Source: Amanita rubescens
Lineage: Eukaryota > Basidiomycota > Agaricomycetes > Agaricales > Amanitaceae
Assembly: GCA_015039365.1 (NCBI GenBank)
Contig: WION01000368.1
Location: 1-52,327, forward strand
Length of the DNA: 52,327 nucleotides
Reading direction: 5' to 3'
In this document: piece after piece, positions 4,155-51,140 of the stretch
Layout: each line of letters opens with the position of its first letter
Position numbering within the stretch: the stretch's first letter is position 1
Notes under the pieces: model-generated
What the model saw: the letters and a program-made list of their open reading frames with translations, nothing else
What the model was told of the DNA's origin: nothing
The model's database searches: none
Made by a program: the position numbers and the translations under genes

Positions 4155-6243
4155 CTACATGATAACACATTCCTTATCTTCGGCTTTGACACCTTGTATA
4201 CCCATCTCTGCAAAGGTCGAAGGACCTCTTTGCGGCTTTGAAGCATGGGATTCACTCCCCTCGGAAGAAGGAGGACCGGGACTCGTAGAATGGGGAGGGG
4301 TTGAGACGCCGACACCACCGCTAACGTTCCTACCGCCTCTTCCATAACGACCTACGGTGGGAGTATTGCCGCCAGAGCCTGGTCTACCTGGGCTGGCGCT
4401 CCTTGAGGAAGGAACCGGGTTATCGACCAGAGTGTACCTGTTCAAGTTGGGGTATTGCTGTGTATTGGCAGGACGGAGACGGGGACTGGACCCAGGTTGC
4501 TGTTGCTGTTGCGGAAGTTCCGGAGAGCTGGCTGAACGCCCTGGGTGAGGAGGGCGGATCAAGGATGTCCTGCGAGCAAGGTCCATGATCTGCTGTTGAC
4601 TCTCCCGTTTCGGGTAGTGTTGTTGTTGTTGTTGTTGTGGTGGTGGTGGTGGTGGTGGTTGCTGATTCTGAACTGGTGGTTGCTGTTGCTGCTGCTGCTG
4701 TTGTGGCGCACCGTGAGCGTCGCCGCGCTGTTTGGCCATGGTCCTCTTCCTGACGAGCTTGTCTTCTGTAATAACGTCGTGTTGTTCTCTCGATAGAGCC
4801 TGTGGAACTGATTGATCTAGAGCATCCAATCTCTCCGCTGCATCTGTATTGCCATTGTCCCTGGCCTTTTTGTACCATTTGATGGCAACGTTGACGTCCT
4901 TTGTACCTCCGACACCGACCTCCGCATAGTAACCCATTGCGAATTGAGCGCTAGGCAAGCCACGACGAGCAGCCTTGTCAGCAAAAGTCCAAGCGAGACC
5001 TTCATCCTTTTCAAAATGACCTGGAGAAGAGGGATCGTCGCCTGAACCGCAGAGGAACCATTTGCTGAGAGCCATGTCGGCTTCTGCCTCGCCTTGTTGA
5101 CTGGCGAGACTGTAGTATTGGACGCTGAGCAAAGGGTCGAAAGGGAAGGGGGGCTCTGCAAATTCATATGCGTGACCGAGCTTGTACTGGGCTGGTGCAA
5201 AGTGGAGATAGGCAGCACGTTCGAGGTGCTTGCGTGCTTCGAGTTCTGGGGAAGAACCAGACGGTATAAATGGAACAACTGCATATGGGGGAACGGAGAC
5301 CTGTGAAAACTCATTGAGGAGCATGAGTGCATAAACGTAAGCAGGTTGAGGGCTGTCGAGGGAAGCGAGGGTGGCAGCACGATGAAGGAGAGGTAGAGCG
5401 TGTTCGAGCGATACAGGGAAGCCAAGTTGACCGATGAGATGTGCCATACCCATACGCTGGATAGATTTTGTCAGATGAGGAGCAGGTGAAAAAAAAAAAA
5501 AAGCGTACATAGCAGCAACTTTCTACGCCTAGCTTGACGCCTCTTTCAAAACAATCTTTAGCGCGGGCAAAATCGTTGAATGACTCATAATCTCTTCCGA
5601 GCCTAAACCAAGCGGAAGCGTAACCAGAACGGGCGGCAGTTTCGAAATCACGGAAAGCAGATCGCAAGTTTTGACGGAGTAGATCTGGAAATGTACCACT
5701 TGCGGCTAGAGTTGCGCGGATATAAATTGCCTCTGCAACGTGGGGTGGACAGGGTTGGTGTTGCTGTGTCCTCGAGGCGATGTCAAGAATGATGGGGATG
5801 GCAACATGAGCTAAACGGATGAGGTTTGGGTCAGCGATGGGGGTTGTTGGATCTGTGGAAGAGTTTTGTTGAGAACGATTGACGAGAAAGATGACATCTC
5901 GAGACCAAGCGACTTTTGATAGTTGATCATAATTTGGCTGTTGAACTGAAAGAGCGACAGCCTGTAAAGTAGCGATTGTTGGGATTTGAGCTGTTAGTGA
6001 TGGAGAATCTGGTGGAGGAGAAGGAGCTTTTGGTGGAGGACCATAAGTACTTTGAATTGAAGGACGATGATGAATAATAGTGTTGGGTTGAGTGAATGAA
6101 AGAGTAGCTTCATAAGCTGATCTTCTAAGATCGGGTGGTAAAGGTGGAATTGTAGGTGGCATAGAAGAAGTTTGGTGAACAACGTCAGGTGGTCTAGGTG
6201 GAACTGGTGGTGGATAAGATGGTGTTGGGTACGCGTTGTGCAT
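4155..6243 (-). CDS. CHS4: Chs4/Skt5-type chitin synthase activator, Sel1 repeats, CaaX end
   Basis: Two exons (6243-5509 and 5456-4155, 52-nt intron with a long T tract) encode 678 residues. A proline-rich N-terminus (MHNAYPTPSYPPP) is followed by a run of Sel1 repeats, with recognisable units such as AARS.GYASAWFRLGRDYE, AYLHFAPAQYKLGHAYE and AARRGLPSAQFAMGYYAE. The tail has poly-Gln and poly-Pro tracts (about 4610-4710) and ends in CVIM, a CaaX box expected to be farnesylated as in yeast Chs4/Skt5. The family recruits and activates chitin synthase at the plasma membrane or septum. The ATG at 6243 is preferred because upstream in-frame codons lack ATG. It starts 65 bp from the divergent SEC63. 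Confidence 0.88.
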
Positions 6244-6307
6244 GTTAAAGTGCGTAGTCACAAGTCACATCCCTACTCTTGTCACACTTCCACGTCTTCA
6301 ATTCTTC
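6244..6307. promoter_or_regulatory. Very short shared promoter between CHS4 and SEC63
   Basis: Only 64 bp separate the two divergent start codons, so both genes must share this core promoter or have overlapping 5' leaders. I see no clear TATA box; the sequence is pyrimidine-rich on the plus strand before SEC63. Confidence 0.5.
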
Positions 6308-8531
6308 ATGGCAAAGTACAACTACGATGACGCTGGTCATATGCCAGCTTATTTCCTCTTTTCTTTTCTCGCCCTCTTTCTTATCCCTGCTTCAATATCT
6401 TCATTAACTTCAACAAATCAAGGAAATATTCCAGCTTGCAAATGTAATCCTTGCACCACAAGGCGCTCTTGGCTTGCAAGTAATTCTAGGCGTTTCAAAC
6501 TAACAAAACGTTCTATATTCCTCATCATTGGATGGTCACTTCTCGCCTTTTTATTTTACAAAGTATCCAATGCCGTAGTCGAAAACAAGGTCTACGACCC
6601 TTTTGAAATTCTAGGTATCAACACTGGCACCTCAGAAAAAGAAATCAAGTCCCATTTCAAGAAACTCTCTCGCATGTATCACCCAGACAAGGTCAAAGCA
6701 ACAGCCAACCACACCATAGAGATGATTCAGGAAAAATTCGTTCAAATTACAAAGGCGTACAAATCCCTCACAGACGAATCCATCCGCAAAAACTGGGAAC
6801 TCTACGGTAACCCAGACGGTCGTCAGGAAATGACAACAGGTATCGCTCTACCCAGGTGGATCGTCGAGAGCAAGTACAACGGTTGGGTACTTGGTGTTTA
6901 CGGCTTGCTCTTTGGAGGTGCCCTGCCTGCTTTAGTAGGCAGATGGTGGTTCAGCAGCCGCGAAATAACCAAAGATGGTATCCACGCTCGCTCCGCTGCA
7001 GAATTTTTCAAGTCTTTACGCGAAGATTCCGCTGCAGACCAAGTCTTTAGTACCCTCGGAAAATCCTTCACCTGGGAACGCTCTTCAAAGTCTTCCTCCG
7101 CAGACGCCGCAGAATTGAAAAGGCTCGATCAGGAACTCGTCAACAACGTTGGCAAACCTTGGAATGCCATACAATCCATTCTACAACCACCCGACGACGC
7201 ACGCAGGAGAGCACTCATACTTCTTTACGCTCACATGCTCAGAATAGACGTCAAGCGACCCAACTTGGTCAACGGTATACTCTCTTCTCTCTCTCTCTTT
7301 CCACCTTTCTAACTCTACCGCAGAACAATCCCAAATTCTTCAACATACCCCCCTTCTCTTGAACGCCCTTCTCAACATCACTCTTTCACGCAACTGGCTC
7401 TCCCCTGCTCTTGATGTCATGCGCTTGAATGCGTATCTCGTTCAAGCACTGCCTCCTCCCTTACTATCCGATGGCTCTTTGATCAATCCCCGTGCTCCCG
7501 CATTTGCTCAGCTACCGGGTATAACCTCACCCGAGGAGGCCAACACCATCGCTCCTAGTGCCACTGGATACAATGATTTCGTCCGCGCTTTACAAGAAAA
7601 AGGTGATCACCGACTCTCCGACGTTAAAACCGCTCTGTCAACCTGGGGCGGTCATGTAGATCTCGTCGATGTTGCGTTCAAAGGTATGATCCATTCCTTC
7701 TCCATCCCGTCAGTCAATCTGAAAAGACCTAGTCATTGGCGAGCGTGTCGTATCCCCCTCGGCCATTGTCTATCTCGTCGTAAAACTCCGCCTCAAGTCT
7801 CCCATTGCAAAAGCACCTCAAGATGACAAGAAGCCAGAGCTAGACGTAGATGCGATCAAGCGACGCGTAAAACGGAATGACGAGCAAGAAGAAGAATTCC
7901 TCAAGTCGCGTGGTGACGCCGAAGAATCGAAAACTATCGCAGAGTATGCCCACGCTCCACATTGGCCTGGCGTATGTTTTCTCTCTTTTTCGAGCGCATC
8001 CATATTCTTAACACTCTCTATTTCAGGAACGGAAACCATCTTGGTGGATCATCCTTGCTGATGAGAAATCAAACCGCATTGTTGTTCCTCCTCTCAAAAT
8101 CACCGATATACCCAATGCTCGATTACCCCACTTCCGATGCCGACGAAGCACTACTTGAACACGATTACAGAGCATACAAGATCCAGTTCCAAAGTCCTCC
8201 TAATGTCGGCATGTTCACATGGAAGGTATACGTTGTCAGTGACACATTTGTCGGTGGGGAAGTAACCCGAGATATTACCGTAAGTATCTCTCTCCAGAGG
8301 CCTATTCACGTATATTAACAACAACAAATCAAGATGAAAATAGAAGAAGCACCCGTATCTGCCGTCGATGAGGTAGAAGATGAGATCTCGGACCCAGATG
8401 AAGATTCGTTGGCCGGCCAGATGGCAGCCATGCGCGGCGGTTCCGTCAAGAAGCGTAAAGAAGAGAGTGATGACGAGGATAGCTTGGATGAGGAAAGCGA
8501 TGAGGATAGTAGTAGCAGCGATAGCGACTAG
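6308..8531 (+). CDS. SEC63: Sec63, ER translocon J-domain subunit, with one frame break
   Basis: Five exons (6308-7274, 7324-7683, 7733-7971, 8027-8279, 8334-8531). Three membrane segments lie near residues 13-35, 68-85 and 195-217. The J domain sits between the second and third, with HPDK at 125-128. The Sec63/Brl region follows (GIALPRWIVESKYNGW, WPGERKPSWWIILADE, YKIQFQSPPNVGMFTW, SDTFVGGEVTRDI), then the acidic tail (DPDEDSLAGQMAAMRGG) that contacts the translocon side. Summed exons are 2017 nt, one more than a multiple of three. The frame changes within about 8122-8140, between KITDIPNARLPH and DADEALLEHDYRAYK, and the duplicated 3' copy at 16.2 kb lacks the extra base. This is either a real +1 insertion or an assembly error; the rest looks intact and functional. 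Confidence 0.88.
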
Positions 8532-41252: not shown

Positions 41253-42466
41253 ATGGCAGCCACAACTGGTGCACATTCTTTGAGTAGGCTAATTTATGTG
41301 ACACAGCATTGCTAACCCTTGAATGACACATATCAGATGCAGACTTGGATGAGACACATGTTCAAATGCTCAGGGAGCGCTATCTATGCCCACACTTTCG
41401 CATCCTTGTCATTGGGAGGGCTAATGCGGGCAAGACAACCATCCTGGAGAAGGTTTGTGGTGTAGCAAAGGGGACAAAGCCCATCATATGTGACAGGGAT
41501 GGTAAGTCAATCTCAGTTTTGTGCTTCCAAGTTTGACTGCTGAGTTTCTTGCAGGTAATCAACTTGAACAGTCTGTGATTCATTTGATGCCATCAGTTGA
41601 GGTGAGTCAGATAATGATGTATGGATGTACCCACTCACATGCAATGATAACAGAGAGGCCTGCATGATATTGAACATCAAATTACATACCCTGGAAGTAA
41701 CTTTATCTTCCATGACTCTAAGGGTTTTGAATGTGGTTCAAATGAGGAATTGGAGATTGCTTGGAACTTCATTGAAAAGAAGTCTGCAGAAACTGAGCTG
41801 AAAAGCCAGCTGCATGCAATTTGGTATCTTGCTTCTATCCCTTTACAGTACTGGCTGACCTGGCTTCCTCTAGGTACTGTATACCCATGGACAGCCCTCG
41901 TCCCATTCTACCTGCAGAACTTGAATTCTTCAATAAAGGGACAGGCAGAGGTAAGTCCTAATGAATTCATATCTCATCTTGTAACTTGTTGGTTTTGGAG
42001 AGATTGTTACCTTAACTATTGTTGCCTCCTTTCCATTGGCCAACTTGCCACAAAATCTACTAGTACTGACTAGTAAATATTTCCTTTACAGTTCCCTTGG
42101 TGGTTATATTCACTAAATTTGATGGTCAAATAGCCAGTGAATATGTCAACTTGACTGATGCAAAGGATGAAGATAAGTGGGAGAGAGCCAGGGAAATTGC
42201 TGAAATCACTTTTCAGAAGTTTATCTTCCTAAAGTTTTGGATGCCAAATATCCTCCCAAGGCATATGTGCGATTGGAAGGTGAGAATGATGAGGATTTCT
42301 TCCTAAAATGGGAGTAATGTTGTTTCATAGACATGGATTTACCAGAGAAGAATTGTGCTGAATTAACTCAGCAAACTGCTGATGCAATAGATGATGACAG
42401 CATACATCAGCTGTTTGTTTCAACACAGATGAATAATCTTGACCTTTGTGTTAAATCTGCACTTCA
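41253..42466 (+). CDS. P-loop GTPase-family protein, N-terminal part
   Basis: Exons 41253-41283, 41337-41501, 41555-41601, 41654-41823, 41874-41950, 42092-42279 and 42331-42466, introns of 50-53 nt apart from one of 141 nt. G1 is VIGRANAGKTT, G3 HDSKGFE and G4 VVIFTKFD, the signature of a large AIG1/TrmE-like family expanded in mushrooms. Downstream pieces (VYLPKVLDAKYPPKAYVRL and LFVSTQMNNLDLC) are also family features. A one-base shift near 42216 separates VYLPKVL from the G4 exon, and the step from 42466 to the next coding stretch meets a TGA. Either the gene is slightly damaged, the assembly has errors, or the following array begins a separate gene. Confidence 0.72.
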
Positions 42467-42528
42467 GTGAGGGTCACATTCAAATTGTCACTTACTAACA
42501 TTGACATTGTTCAGACAAGTTCTGAAAT

Positions 42529-45500
42529 ATGAAGATTGGATATGGGAATGATGTCATTATCATAGTTTTTTCCAAATTTCCACATTTTTGGGTATGCATT
42601 TTTGTCTAACTGCACATCAGCATAGGAAAATTTAAATGGCAATAGGTGGACAGGGAGGTAGGTGACCTTCATATGGAATGATAAATACTTGCAAATGTTC
42701 ATCAGGAGGTAAGTAACACTCCAATGCCTTCACATGAAAACAAAATTAGTCATGCTTCAGATGGCCAATGAACAACTGAGTGAAGCACAGGTTAGTCACT
42801 GTCACCATATTCAGTTGGTGGCAGGATCTGATGATATTGATATCAGTGGGTATGTAAATGACATTGAACTACATAGCATAGATCTGATATATTGTCTCAT
42901 GACAACAGTTTGTGAGTAATGCTTCCTTTTGTGATGAGCATTCTTGTCCCATAATCTACAGGAAGTGAGTGACATGACTCAATTTTGATTTTTGGTAAAT
43001 GATCCCATGGTGCACCATATGGCCAATAGCAAGTGAGTTGATCTATCATTGTAAGCAGACTTGTCAATCCAGTCTCTCATGGACAGGGAGTGAGTAATAC
43101 ATCATTCCTTCACACCACATCTGACCTGCTTAAAGAAAGTAAGCAACATAGATGTTGTACAGCTTACCAGACATATTACTCAATGAACAACAGAAAGTTG
43201 GTAACATATTATTATCTGAAAGAGAGTCTCAAAAATTTCATTGGATTAATAACAGGAAGTAAGTAACATTTCCTTTCTGTCTGCTCATAAATATTATATG
43301 ATCTCCCAAAACAACAGACAGTAAATATTTCTCCTTTTCAAATTCTCTTCACAAGCTATTGCAAAATAAACAGGATGTATGTGATCCTTCTGTGACATGT
43401 GAATTCATCATATGAAATACTATGACAAAAGAGAGTCAGTGGCATTGTTTTCTTTTTTCTGAACTCCTCACAATACTAATTCCATTCTAAAAGGAAGTGA
43501 GTGATGCTGGCCATTTTGCTACAGGACAATTTGGACACATTATTTTGTTCTACAGATTGTGGGTGATATTGCAAGTTTTGTGAAAAGCAGTGAAATCACA
43601 TACATATTTTCCTATAAATATAGAAGGTTAACAGCATGTCATGCTGATTTAGTGGTTCAAAAGATGACCTTACCAAATTTTGCCTATGTCTAACAGTATG
43701 TGAGTAACATTGCACATTTTGTGAAAGGCAGTCTCATTACATCTTTTCCTATGACCAACAGGTTGTGAGTGACAATGCACATTTTGTGAAAGGCAGTCTC
43801 ATCACATGTTTTCCTATGACCAACAGCGAGTGAGTGACATTGCACATTTTGTGAAAGGCAGGCTCATCACATCTTTTCCTATGACCAACAGCGAGTGAGT
43901 GACATTGCACATTTTGTGAAAGGCAGTCTCATCACATCTTTTCCTACAACAGCGAGTGAGTGACATTGCACATTTGTGAAAGGCAGTCTCCTCACATCTT
44001 TTCCTATGACCAACAGGCAGTGAGTGACATCTACACATTTTGTGAAAGGCAGTCTCATCACATGCTTTTCCTATGACCAACAGCGAGTGAGTGACATTGC
44101 ACATTTGTGAAAGGCAGTCTCATCACATCTTTTCCTATGACCAACAGCAAGTGAGTGACATTGCACATTTTGTGAAAGGCAGTCTCATCACATCTTTCCC
44201 TATGACCAACAGGAAGTCAGTGACATTGCACATTTTGTGAAAGGCAGTCTCATCACATCGTTTTCCCTATGACCAACAGCGAGTGAGTGACATTGCACAT
44301 TTTGTGAAAGGCAGTCTCATTGCATCTTTTCCTATGAGCAACAGCTTGTGAGTGATCATTGCACATTTTGTGAAAGGCAGTCTCATCACATGTTTTCCTA
44401 TGACCAACAGCGAGTGAGTGACATTGCACATTTTGTGAAAGGCAGTCTCATCACATGTTTTCCTATGAACAACAGTTTGTGAGTGACACAAGTTGCACAT
44501 TTTGTGAAAGGCAGTCTCATCACATGTTTTCCTATGACCAACAGCAAGTGAGTGACATTGCACATTTTGTGAAAGGCAGTCTCATCACATGTTTTCCTAT
44601 GATCAACAGCAAGTGAGTGACATTGCACATTTTGTGAAAGGCAGTCTCATCACATGTTTTCCTATGACCAACAGCAAGTGAGTGACATTGCACATTTTGT
44701 GAAAGGCAGTCTCATCACATCTTTTCATATGACAAACAGGCAGTGAGTGACATTACACATTTGGTGAAAGGCAGTCTCATCACATCTTTTCCTATGACCA
44801 ACAGCGAGTGAGTGACATTGCACATTTTGTGAAAGGTAGTCTCATCACATGTTTTCCTATGACCAACAGTTTGTGAGTGACATTACACATTTTGTGAAAG
44901 GCAGTCTCATCACATGTTTTCCTATGACCATTGACCAACAGCTTGTGGGTGACATTGCACATTTTGTGAAAGGCAGTCTCATCACATGTTTTCCCATGAC
45001 CAACAGGAAGTGAGTGGCATTGCACATTTTGTGAAAGGCAGTCTCATCACATGTTTTCCTATGACCAACAGCAAGTGAGTGACATTGCACATTTTGTGAA
45101 AGGTAGTCTCGTCACATGTTTTCCTATGACCAACAGCTTGTGAGTGTCATTGCACATTTTGTGAAAGGCAGTCTCATCACATGTTTTCCTATGACCAACA
45201 GCTTGTGAGTGTCATTGCACATTTTGTGAAAGGCAGTCTCATCACATGTTTTCCTTTGACCAACAGCAAGTGAGTTCCTTTGCAATCTTTTTGACCTGCA
45301 TTCTCAGCATACCTTCATGAATGTTTGATATATCATTACATCCTATTTATACATATCAGAAAGTGAGCATGTTGCCATATCTTTTCCATGTCTTCCTTTT
45401 ACATTATTATCATCATAGATTGTAAGATTTCATTTCAGCTCACCCACTCCCACCTCATGTGATTATTCTGTATTCTCTATCTCATACATAACTAGGATGA

Positions 45501-45882
45501 ACTTTTCTCAATGTTTCGAGTCAAGCAAGAGAATTTTGCAGTAAAGGTGTTTTTCTTTTTTTTCTTTTTGGGTACTACACAACTGATGCTATTGCAACAA
45601 GCCTACTCATTGCCAGGTCCTAGTTTGTAAATTACTCCTTTTCATTTACTGAATTTATGCTTAAACCTTGGAGCAATTATTATCATTGCCAAGCTATCCT
45701 TTTGGATCAATAAACCATTTCTGCCATCAGTCACAGAGGCCTTGGATCAATACAAGCAAAAAGGCTATGCTCAGAAGCTGAAGACTGACATTACTCGTGA
45801 CTTTATGGACTCTGGTCATCAAGATTTTGTCACATTACTCAATAGACAGGTGTCTCATATTGATGGTATGGACTTTGTCTAG
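42529..45882 (+). CDS. C-terminal coding part built from 42 one-codon exons between normal exons
   Basis: A coding stretch from the ATG at 42529 (MKIGYGNDVIIIVFSKFPHFW; FPHFW is a GTPase-family feature) ends at 42591. It is followed by exons 42646-42657 (VDRE), 42706-42708 (E), 42761-42790 (MANEQLSEAQ), then 41 consecutive 3-nt exons from 42847 to 45421, then 45496-45546 (DELFSMFRVKQENFAVK), 45617-45622 (VL) and 45694-45882 (LSFWINKPFLPSVTEALDQ..., TAG). Every intron is phase 0 with a GT donor (mostly GTGAGT, GTAAGT or GTATGT) and AG acceptor. Single-codon exons spell segments such as WFEQGKKETDREIKYV and RFQQQARFLEQLLQKI, an amphipathic helix. The last exon resembles the C-terminal helices of the same GTPase family, so this is probably one gene with 41253-42466. 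The alternative is one 2.9-kb intron from 42592 to 45495. Confidence 0.6.
42592..43761 (+). repeat. Left, diverged half of the codon-plus-intron array
   Basis: Eighteen intron-sized intervals of 46-70 nt share almost no sequence beyond their splice signals, yet each ends in AG and begins in GT around a 3-nt block, apart from the two longer exons VDRE and MANEQLSEAQ. Codon positions are 42706 GAG, 42847 TGG, 42909 TTT, 42962 GAA, 43030 CAA, 43087 GGA, 43136 AAA, 43194 AAA, 43256 GAA, 43318 ACA, 43374 GAT, 43432 AGA, 43494 GAA, 43556 ATT, 43624 AAG, 43697 TAT. Confidence 0.7.
43762..45362 (+). repeat. Right, homogeneous half: 65-bp minisatellite of codon plus intron
   Basis: About 24 units of 65 bp consist of a variable codon, GTGAGTGACATTGCACATTT, a conserved middle (GTGAAAGGCAGTCTCATCAC), and TTTTCCTATGACCAACAG. 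Codon positions: 43762 GTT, 43827 CGA, 43892 CGA, 43953 CGA, 44017 GCA, 44084 CGA, 44148 CAA, 44213 GAA, 44280 CGA, 44345 CTT, 44411 CGA, 44476 TTT, 44545 CAA, 44610 CAA, 44675 CAA, 44740 GCA, 44805 CGA, 44870 TTT, 44942 CTT, 45007 GAA, 45072 CAA, 45137 CTT, 45202 CTT, 45267 CAA, then diverged 45360 AAA. Occasional small indels fall in the intron part, never in the triplet. Confidence 0.85.
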
Positions 45883-46640: not shown

Positions 46641-47620
46641 GTGCCAATCATCCACTGATAAAGACATAGCGATTCATGGTAGATTATTTTGTGTCAAGCC
46701 AAACATAGTGTTGTGACCAACCAAAACCATGTGAAAATGGTCCGCCTATTACAACGCTGCCATCGGCGGACCATTTTCATTTATGTAAGTGATCCAATTA
46801 ACCGCCAATCAAAACATTGTAATGTGCGGAAGATTATTTTCCTTAAAGCCAAACATAGTGTTGTGACCAACCGGGACCATTTTTCATTTATATAAGTGAT
46901 CCAATTATCCGCCAATCAAAACATTGTAATGTGCAGAAGATTATTTTCTTTAAAGCCAAACATAGCATTGTTACCAATTGAAACCATGTGAAAATGGTCC
47001 GCCTATTCCAACGCTGCCATCGGCGGACCATTTTCATCTATATAAGTGATACAATTATCTGCGAATCAAAACATTGTAATGTGCAGAAGATTATTTTGTG
47101 TCAAGCCAAACATAACATTGTTACCAATTGAAACCATGTGAAAATGGTCCGCCTATTCCAACAGTGCCATCGGCGGACTATTTTTCATCTATATACGTGA
47201 TCCAATTATCTGCCAATCAAGACATTGTAATGTGCGGAAGATTATTTTCCTTAAAGCCAAACATGGCATTGTTACCAATCAAAATCATGTGAAAATGGTC
47301 CGCCTATTCCAACGCTGCCATCGGCGGACCATTTTTCATCTATATAAGTGATACAATTATCCGCCAATCATGACATTGTAACATGCGGAATATTATTTCC
47401 ATTCAAGTCAAACATAGCATTGTTACCAACCGAAACCATGTGAAACTGGTCCGCCTATTCCAACGGTGCCATCAGCGGACCATTTTTCATCCATGTATGT
47501 GATACAATTATCCGCCAATCACAACATTGCAATGTGCGGAAGATTATTTTATTTCAAGTCAAACATAGCATTGTTACCAACCAAAACCATAAGAAAATGG
47601 ACCGCTCATTGCAATGATGT
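46640..47620. repeat. 150-bp satellite with an 11-bp perfect hairpin per unit
   Basis: About six units. The markers GGTCCGCCTATT recur near 46740, 46999, 47149, 47299 and 47451, giving a 150-bp period. Each full unit contains AATGGTCCGCC, an 18-nt loop, and GGCGGACCATT, followed by TATATAAGTGAT, CAATTATCCGCCAATC and TGTGCGGAAGATTATTTT. The first interval is longer and partial. No coding capacity. Confidence 0.85.
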
Positions 47621-48489: not shown

Positions 48490-49400
48490 TCGGGTGCGCG
48501 ATCTATTTTTGGTCGCGATCGCGACGTCATCATCGCCCCTTTCCTTTTTTGTCATCGTCGTCATCCACCCCCCTCCTCTTTCGTCATCGTCGTCGTTACC
48601 CCCCTCGGCGTCGTCGTCGTCCCCCCTTTATCCCCCATCGCGGCCGCTGTCCCTTTCCATTTTTGGCAATCATCGCCCCGCATCCCCCCCAATTTCCCTC
48701 CTGCCGTCGTCGTCGTCACCCCCTTTCACCCCCATTATCCCCCTCCCCTCATCGTGCGCGATCTATTCTTAGTCACGATCCGATCGCATCCCCTTCCCTC
48801 GTCGTCGTTACCCCCCCTAGTCGTCGTCGTCGTCGTCCCCCCTTATCCCCCATCGCGGCCGCTGTCCCCTTTCCATTTTTGGTAATCATTGCCCGGCATT
48901 TCCCCCACAATATCCCTCCTGCCGTCGTCGTCGTCACCCCCTTTCACCCCCATTATCCCTCATCGTGCGCGATCTATTCTTAGCCACGATCCGATCGCAT
49001 CCCCCTCGTCGTCGTCGTCGTCGTCGTCCCCCCCTTATCCCCCATCGCGGCCGCTGTCCCCTTTCCATTTTTGGTAATCGTTGCCCCGCATCCCCCCCAG
49101 TTTCCCTCCTGCCGTCGTCGTCGTCACCCCCTTTCACCCCCATTATCCCCCTCCCCTCATCGTGCGCGATCTATTCTTAGTCACAATCCGATTGTATCCC
49201 CTTTGCCGTCGTTACCCCCCTAGTCGTCGTCGTCGTCGTCCCCCCCTTATCCCCCATTGCGGCCGCTGTCCCTTTCCCTTTTTGGTAATCGTCACCCAGC
49301 ATCCCCCCCAATTTCCCTCCTGCCGTCGTCGTCGTCACCCCCTTTCACCCCCATTTCCCACACCCTGCGCGATCTATTCTTAGTCACAATCCGATCATGT
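48490..49400. repeat. C-rich satellite of about 200 bp with CGTCGTCGT tracts
   Basis: Five units marked by GTGCGCGATCTATT at about 48498, 48754, 48966, 49162 and 49366. Each contains two (GTC)n tracts, ATCGCGGCCGCTGTCCC and TTTCCATTTTTGGTAATC. The long open frames on both strands are side effects of the repeats and carry no domains. Less regular C-rich sequence continues to about 49640. Confidence 0.8.
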
Positions 49401-50743: not shown

Positions 50744-51140
50744 TCGTCTGTAAAGCAGGTCAACTTTTCCCTCCGACTAAAAGCACCGTAACACCACCCT
50801 CAAACTTTTCTCTTTATACAGGTACTCCCTCAGTCTTCCTGTTCGCGCTGTAACCAATGTTTTGCGCGTTTGTCAGTAAGCCTTCCAAATTTGGCAAGTC
50901 GTTCACTCCCGCTACCATCACGTACTAAAACGGAGCTATATTTTTGTCTGTAAAGCAGGTCAACTTTTCCCTGCAACTAAAAGCACCGTAACACCACCCT
51001 CAAACTTTTCTCTTTATACAGGTACTCCCCCAGTCTTCCTGTTCGCGCTGTAACCGATGTTTTGTGCAAGCTTTCCAAACTTGGCAGGTGGGTCACTTCT
51101 CTCTCCTCCCGCTACCATCACGTACTAAAACGGAGCTTGA
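50744..51140. repeat. Tandem duplication of about 200 bp
   Basis: The stretch from GTCTGTAAAGCAGGTCAAC through TAAAACGGAGCT occurs twice in a row (about 50746-50938 and 50946-51138) with a few substitutions and a small indel. Each copy contains ACCACCCTCAAACTTTTC, TTTATACAGGTACTCCC and CCCGCTACCATCACGTAC. Confidence 0.85.

Follow-up and report, generated by a model that had tools for sequence, protein, structure and literature searches.

A stretch of 52,327 nt from Amanita rubescens, hereafter the window (contig C298 of the 75.7 Mb genome), poses the question of whether a long series of three-base blocks, each flanked by an AG acceptor on its left and a GT donor on its right, represents single-codon exons joined one after another by splicing, or only the regular by-product of a repeat within an intron. 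An earlier note on this DNA had counted 42 such blocks, and all 42 are present at 42706-45421: GAG at 42706, TGG at 42847, and 40 more running from TTT at 42909 to ATT at 45419-45421, with introns of 46-90 nt between neighbouring exons of the array. An automatic search for three-base chains returns 41 blocks, picking a chance TTG at 42815 instead of TGG at 42847. The pattern is far above chance. In the left half (42640-43720), which is non-repetitive, a search for three-base blocks finds 17 sites and a longest chain of 15, whereas no other length between 0 and 9 exceeds 3 sites or a chain of 2; the longest three-base chain obtained by chance was 3, both in 200 dinucleotide shuffles and on the two strands of window positions 1-42000. 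The right half consists of 24.4 tandem copies of a 65-nt unit (43679-45275), so that its regularity is no proof by itself, and it is the codon evidence that decides.

All features of the gene lie on the forward strand. Sequence matches place the G-domain exon regions at 41348..41506 (carrying the P-loop GRANAGKT, and matched by tblastn), 41654..41824 (RGLHDIEHQ...HAIW), 41875..41949 (YCIPMDSPRP...), 42091..42234 (exon 4, VPLVVIFTKFD...) and 42330..42467 (DMDLPEKN...SALQ), followed at 42515..42591 by an exon that ends in FPHFW in the sibling genes. Next come the four-codon exon VDRE (42646..42657), for which the database protein P0045 has VGRD at the same place, the one-codon exon E (GAG, 42706..42708; GTG in 7 of 14 aligned loci, E in P0045), and the ten-codon exon MANEQLSEAQ (42761..42790), which is matched across loci. 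Fifteen one-codon exons then occupy 42847..43699 (W42847, F42909, E42962, Q43030, G43087, K43136, K43194, E43256, T43318, D43374, R43432, E43494, I43556, K43624 and Y43697), and the string that they spell is mostly conserved among paralogues and recurs with substitutions in P0045 and in a second database protein, P0010. The hypervariable array proper spans 43762..45269 and comprises 24 one-codon exons (V43762, R43827, R43892, R43953, A44017, R44084, Q44148, E44213, R44280, L44345, R44411, F44476, Q44545, Q44610, Q44675, A44740, R44805, F44870, L44942, E45007, Q45072, L45137, L45202 and Q45267), separated by introns that are alike and 58-69 nt long, mostly 62. The final two one-codon exons (45360..45421) are K at 45360-45362 and I at 45419-45421, after which follow the DELF exon, DELFSMFRVKQENFAVK, at 45496..45546, matched in 14 of 18 loci with both gene ends, and the C-terminal coding part (VTEALDQYKQKGY...) at 45730..45879, again by sequence match.

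The earlier note also had the flanking exons joining in frame, which is true of VDRE, MANEQLSEAQ and DELF, all in phase with the blocks, but not of the upstream exons, where the window copy carries two frame lesions. Compared with its siblings exon 4 is one base short near 42219, and the exon before the array (42515-42591) is one base too long: it measures 77 nt, and in all 19 siblings read its length is 76 or 73. Both lesions lead to stops, while the same exons are open in all 19 readable sibling loci (the twentieth, L028, is without these exons). Since the two lesions lie upstream in this one copy, this family member may have broken only recently, or it may have been mis-sequenced.

The design itself recurs throughout the genome. 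A search with the array DNA gave at least 39 clusters, the window being one of them (40 of 220 candidates were scored), although some near-identical clusters among them may be haplotypes of one locus. We parsed 20 of the 38 other clusters plus 8 more diverged loci, and chains of one-codon blocks were found in all 28, the longest strict chains running to 14-77 blocks in the first 20 loci (20/20) and to 21-58 in the diverged ones (8/8), with the maximum of 77 in L012. Block chains were also seen in L029 and L032; L030 and L031 are parts of genes already contained in L019 and L023, and gave no chain when read on the opposite strand. Eighteen of the first 20 loci have the five G-domain exons and a MANEQLSEAQ-like exon before the array and the C-terminal part after it, whereas L018 is without the C-terminus and L028 without the G domain, both adjoining contig ends. 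Contigs end inside the genes of L018 (C239), L028 (C155) and L041 (C12), and so the arrays may break the assembly and further loci may be hidden. Several six-base blocks (CAATCT, CAATAT) stand within the one-codon arrays of L026 and L027 as two-codon exons. The G-domain family as a whole looks large, with at least 288 matches to P0010 in the genome (107 of 891 candidates scored), a figure that is no gene count because each gene matches exon by exon. For tests on homogeneous units we used 21 loci, or 15 without the near-duplicates L011, L014, L015, L018, L024 and L027; L019 was also left out of the codon-word and codon-intron decoupling tests (14 loci).

Do the blocks behave as exons? Block lengths were extracted with mid-intron anchors, AG and GT not being required, from 511 segments of 30-52 nt in 15 loci, other spacings being left out. 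Outside L019, 456 of 467 resolved blocks were exactly 3 nt long (4 were of 6 nt, 5 of 2 and 2 of 4, and 12 more stayed unresolved), and five of the seven blocks of 2 or 4 nt belong to a single locus, L009. In L019 15 of 32 blocks were 3 nt long and the other 17 measured 0-4 nt. Both AG and GT were retained in 411 of 414 modal-length segments, the exceptions being two losses in L022 (one acceptor, one donor) and, in the window, a single shift of register.

Stops hardly occur among the codons. Among 558 units from the 15 non-redundant loci, picked for AG, GT and consensus-like flanks, there was 1 stop against 25.5 expected from column composition. This column-independence test was set aside as confounded, TTA and TCA being absent as well, and we relied instead on a test within the xRA class, where T was the first base of 1 of 323 xRA codons versus 59 of 235 other codons (Fisher 2e-23; 15 loci). 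The eight diverged loci gave the same picture, with 1 stop in 313 blocks and first-base T in 1 of 154 xRA codons versus 48 of 159 others; background AGNNNGT sites in the window include 16 stops in 349, and the block stops are located in L022 and L039. Codons that would create a rival splice site are scarce too, since the 558 units hold no xGT where 54 are expected, 22 xYA where 113 are expected and 2 xAG where 5.3 are expected, an avoidance that is weaker in the eight diverged loci (xGT 8/313, xAG 9/313).

The left half adds a comparison free of the tandem repeat. Across 14 aligned loci the order W F E Q G K K E T D R E I K Y is kept with few substitutions, and mean pairwise mismatch is 0.9% at splice bases, 8.1% in codons and 12.8% in intron interiors, the edge in conservation of codons over introns being modest (P 0.015). 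With splice bases at 0.9% against 12.8% in intron interiors, and with two proteins that read as spliced products, the proposal of serial single-codon exons with preserved splice sites is supported.

Those two proteins are P0010 and P0045. P0010 has 386 residues, comes from a JGI source on a 1446-nt contig, and reads FPHLW-VDRAV-TNEQLSETK-WFEKGKKESDREIEY, then 43 residues ending in I; after this array I it continues VRFHF..., which is the reading of the intron after the window's final one-codon exon. P0045, on a 1903-nt JGI contig, reads VGRD-E-MANKQLSEAQ-WFEHGKKDTDKQIVY plus another array string. From the short contigs and the joined codons we infer that both derive from cDNA, in which case splicing of the blocks does take place: the codon strings are too closely joined for ordinary genomic DNA of the family, which points to an origin in spliced RNA, as a retrocopy likewise would. 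Among the matches listed no exon of the genome exceeds 89% identity to P0010, so this protein is probably that of a relative. We read 38 homologous proteins; the array is seen in these two alone, and in no NCBI model of the set. Searches directed at the linker returned only P0010 itself, P0045, P0001 and the distant P0121; the distant relatives P0036, P0053 and P0121 have a WF...-like stretch followed by a different, ordinary-looking linker.

These results bear directly on two readings that would do away with the exons or with their variability. One holds that the array is a tandem repeat within one long intron, its AG and GT merely part of the unit and unused. It draws on the right half, where copying of the 65-nt unit also copies the splice motifs, and on the absence of the array from all NCBI gene models read, but it has no place for the chain of 15 in the non-repetitive left half, for the avoidance of stops, xGT and xYA codons, for a three-base length that holds in most of the 15 loci, or for two database proteins resembling the joined codons, and we consider it very improbable. 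The other attributes the codon variability to an assembly artefact of collapsed repeats, and seems to us scarcely credible: although some contigs end within these genes, and a consensus over differing alleles might give the L019 block lengths of 0-4 with flanks unchanged, assembly errors would neither leave out stops, xGT and xYA nor keep to three bases in the other loci, and the design recurs in diverged arrays whose introns are different.

We therefore favour, with a probability of about 0.82, the explanation that serial one-codon exons encode a hypervariable linker that has been diversified by recombination and selection. The 42 predicted one-codon exons would most likely belong to a G-domain (GTP-binding-like) gene and be joined serially by splicing, the product being a conserved 15-residue stretch and then a hypervariable linker peptide. 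The near-identical introns could serve as homology arms for short recombination events, so that one or a few codons would be replaced per event without damage, and new codon strings would be kept by diversifying selection. Our confidence is strong for serial splicing into a hypervariable linker and moderate for diversification by short recombination between near-identical introns together with diversifying selection; that the linker might have a role in non-self recognition, as proposed for other hypervariable fungal receptors, is an analogy to which we give little weight.

How uniform are the introns, and how variable the codons? In modal-length segments the intron positions beside the block, AG and GT apart, reach 94-100% consensus and the three codon positions 53, 34 and 65%. 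The decoupling test covered 525 units from 14 loci. Where two units agree in all 60 nt of their flanks, 592 of 2673 pairs from the same locus share their codon (22%, compared with 17% if codons are dealt at random within the locus), as do 1867 of 16926 from different loci (11%). Mean flank mismatch is 12.3% within and 13.4% between loci, values that are ungapped and hence inflated by indels, and codon mismatch is 57.9% and 60.7%, respectively. Codons are thus nearly decoupled from the introns that surround them, and this hypervariability within near-identical introns, which the earlier note had missed, is the most striking feature of the arrays. Codon use in the arrays strongly favours a single codon for each amino acid. 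Five-codon words, taken from the longest unbroken run per locus, were common to different loci once versus 0.6 times by chance, whereas 5 were repeated within arrays versus 0.4 by chance, and adjacent units were alike in 72 of 323 cases (52.8 by chance). The 62-nt intron has 791 copies in the genome within 3 mismatches and the reversed control none; all but one of the roughly 100 copies listed lie inside 65-nt tandem arrays, and the lone exact copy outside them is at a contig end on C12, beside further blocks.

Pairwise comparison of loci offers a closer view. Within the array L014 and L015 differ at 9 of 117 block bases and at 3 of about 2530 intron bases (single-base gaps uncounted), the block differences falling in runs of 2-3 adjacent codons. 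L026 and L027 show no such excess (3.7% in blocks, 2.9% in introns), and the pairs L011/L012, L012/L018 and L024/L025 have zero block differences, L011 and L012 being set apart by one entire 65-nt unit and a 7-nt gap. Blocks differ by 41% in L013/L017 and by 30% in L010/L020, figures that may partly reflect pairing of non-homologous units. In L019 (C749), at about 5856-7919 in its oriented sequence, blocks of 0, 1, 2 and 4 nt stand between unchanged flanks, possibly as the consensus of two haplotypes differing only in their codons, and the C-terminal exon is split between two frames. A targeted mutational process, which the odd block lengths of L019 had suggested, was dropped because blocks such as CA, GA and A resemble a consensus over differing alleles, and L019 is therefore proof of neither.

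Two further readings accept the exons and differ on how they arose or what they serve. Introner elements exist as many near-identical intron copies per genome, scattered in unrelated genes and accompanied by a target-site duplication, and the 62-nt intron might be a self-copying element of this sort that inserted itself into an ordinary exon at one codon boundary after another. The codons would then be older than the introns, which would leave the introns uniform and the codons not. The 791 copies against none for the reversed control agree with such an invasion, as do the similar flank mismatch within and between loci and the decoupling of codons (22% versus 17% at random). Both systems consist of near-identical intron copies, but those listed here, the C12 copy apart, stand in tandem arrays at one-codon spacing; moreover a bias to one codon per amino acid is unlike an ordinary exon, and L011 and L012 differ by a whole 65-nt unit, and so we think an introner-like origin unlikely. 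Somewhat better placed, though still doubtful, is the idea that alternative splicing is the main purpose, any subset of codons being skippable in frame to give many isoforms per gene. With phase 0 introns and three-base blocks most donor-acceptor pairs are in frame, the likely transcript P0010 retains the next intron, and a precedent is cited for the nank genes of Tuber melanosporum; against this, the avoidance of codons that make rival splice sites argues for accurate splicing, and the codon diversity sits in the genome itself.

Within the favoured reading, that of a linker diversified by recombination and selection, a further result runs the other way: five-codon words are unshared across loci, while plain exchange of longer tracts predicts sharing. 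The main rival account of the codon-intron decoupling is copying of introns only. A bolder version, which we put forward tentatively as possible rather than probable, would see a device working at codon resolution, in which hundreds of one-codon exons are insulated by copies of the 62-nt intron, the introns are homogenised genome-wide, and the codons are rewritten nearly independently by intron-only copying or by a codon-targeted process, so that a recognition peptide would be rebuilt residue by residue.

Regarding the protein, the G domain of the window has a P-loop of the form GxxxxGKT, and the joined domain falls just under the Pfam MMR_HSR1 cut-off (20.5 bits versus 21.9), which the relative P0018 exceeds with 24.8 bits. 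Pfam scans of the window G domain, its C-terminus and four relatives contained no NACHT or ankyrin match, only weak MMR_HSR1 and chance-level rows, and at E 0.01 no domain was assigned to P0010 or P0121. A sequence search of solved structures gave only three weak rows (best E 0.028). In structural comparison the best rows were immunity-related GTPases such as Irga6 and GM4951, a class marked by a G domain with a helical bundle, with rmsd of 6-8 A and 9-13% identity and a modest lead of about 2 Z units over generic G domains (13.3); we know of no hypervariable linker in immunity-related GTPases. AlphaFold gave pLDDT below 50 for residues 322-386 of P0010 and very low confidence for residues 296-344 of P0053, which lie between the G domain and the C-terminal helical part. 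Since the linker is modelled only with low confidence it is probably flexible.

Serial single-codon exons had been called undescribed, a claim that does not stand. According to passages in PMC4986451, PMC10197012 and PMC3689799 citing Iotti et al. 2012, the nank genes of Tuber melanosporum contain multiple or even tens of codon-sized microexons that are alternatively spliced, and the kind is therefore already known. Shared with Tuber are the series of 3-bp exons, the expansion of the gene family and the ectomycorrhizal life of the fungus. To judge from the same passages the Tuber genes are of the NACHT-ANK type, belong to an ascomycete and gain their diversity by alternative splicing, whereas here we have a G domain and a basidiomycete, and the Amanita genome itself carries the hypervariable codons, set in homogenised introns in at least 39 clusters. 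What differs from Tuber is accordingly another family, another phylum and the hypervariability of the codons. The WD-repeat regions of the Podospora HET-E family, as described in part of PMC4986451, undergo concerted evolution with few hypervariable positions per unit; both systems combine repeats homogenised together with hypervariable positions, but the conserved part of the unit is protein in HET-E and intron here, where the hypervariable codon makes up the entire exon. Another extreme fungal microexon, the one-nucleotide exon mentioned for Fusarium CYP621A (PMC12940212), is a single exon rather than an array. Our literature searches listed no paper on microexons or such arrays in Amanita, on this G-domain family, or on hypervariable one-codon exons.

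If the favoured reading is true, the 77 one-codon blocks of the longest strict chain, in L012, would mark an extreme of gene structure, and the family would exemplify a new route to a variable protein region: because the homogenised part of the repeat would be spliced out, recombination could alter codons with the frame intact and without dragging conserved residues along. It would also make testable how fungi diversify candidate receptors, how the spliceosome handles long series of three-base exons, and what causes the decoupling of codons from introns. The absence of the array from all NCBI models read indicates that gene callers can miss such segments.

Finally, scans of the window with Rfam and for tRNAs gave no match, and the DNA beyond the gene holds repeats of other kinds. 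Just 3' of the gene, at 46874-47605, units of about 151 nt are repeated in tandem (4.9 copies); a C-rich tandem repeat of about 211 nt per unit (3.9 copies) occupies 48587-49396, and a 200-nt direct repeat is present in two copies at 50746-51137.
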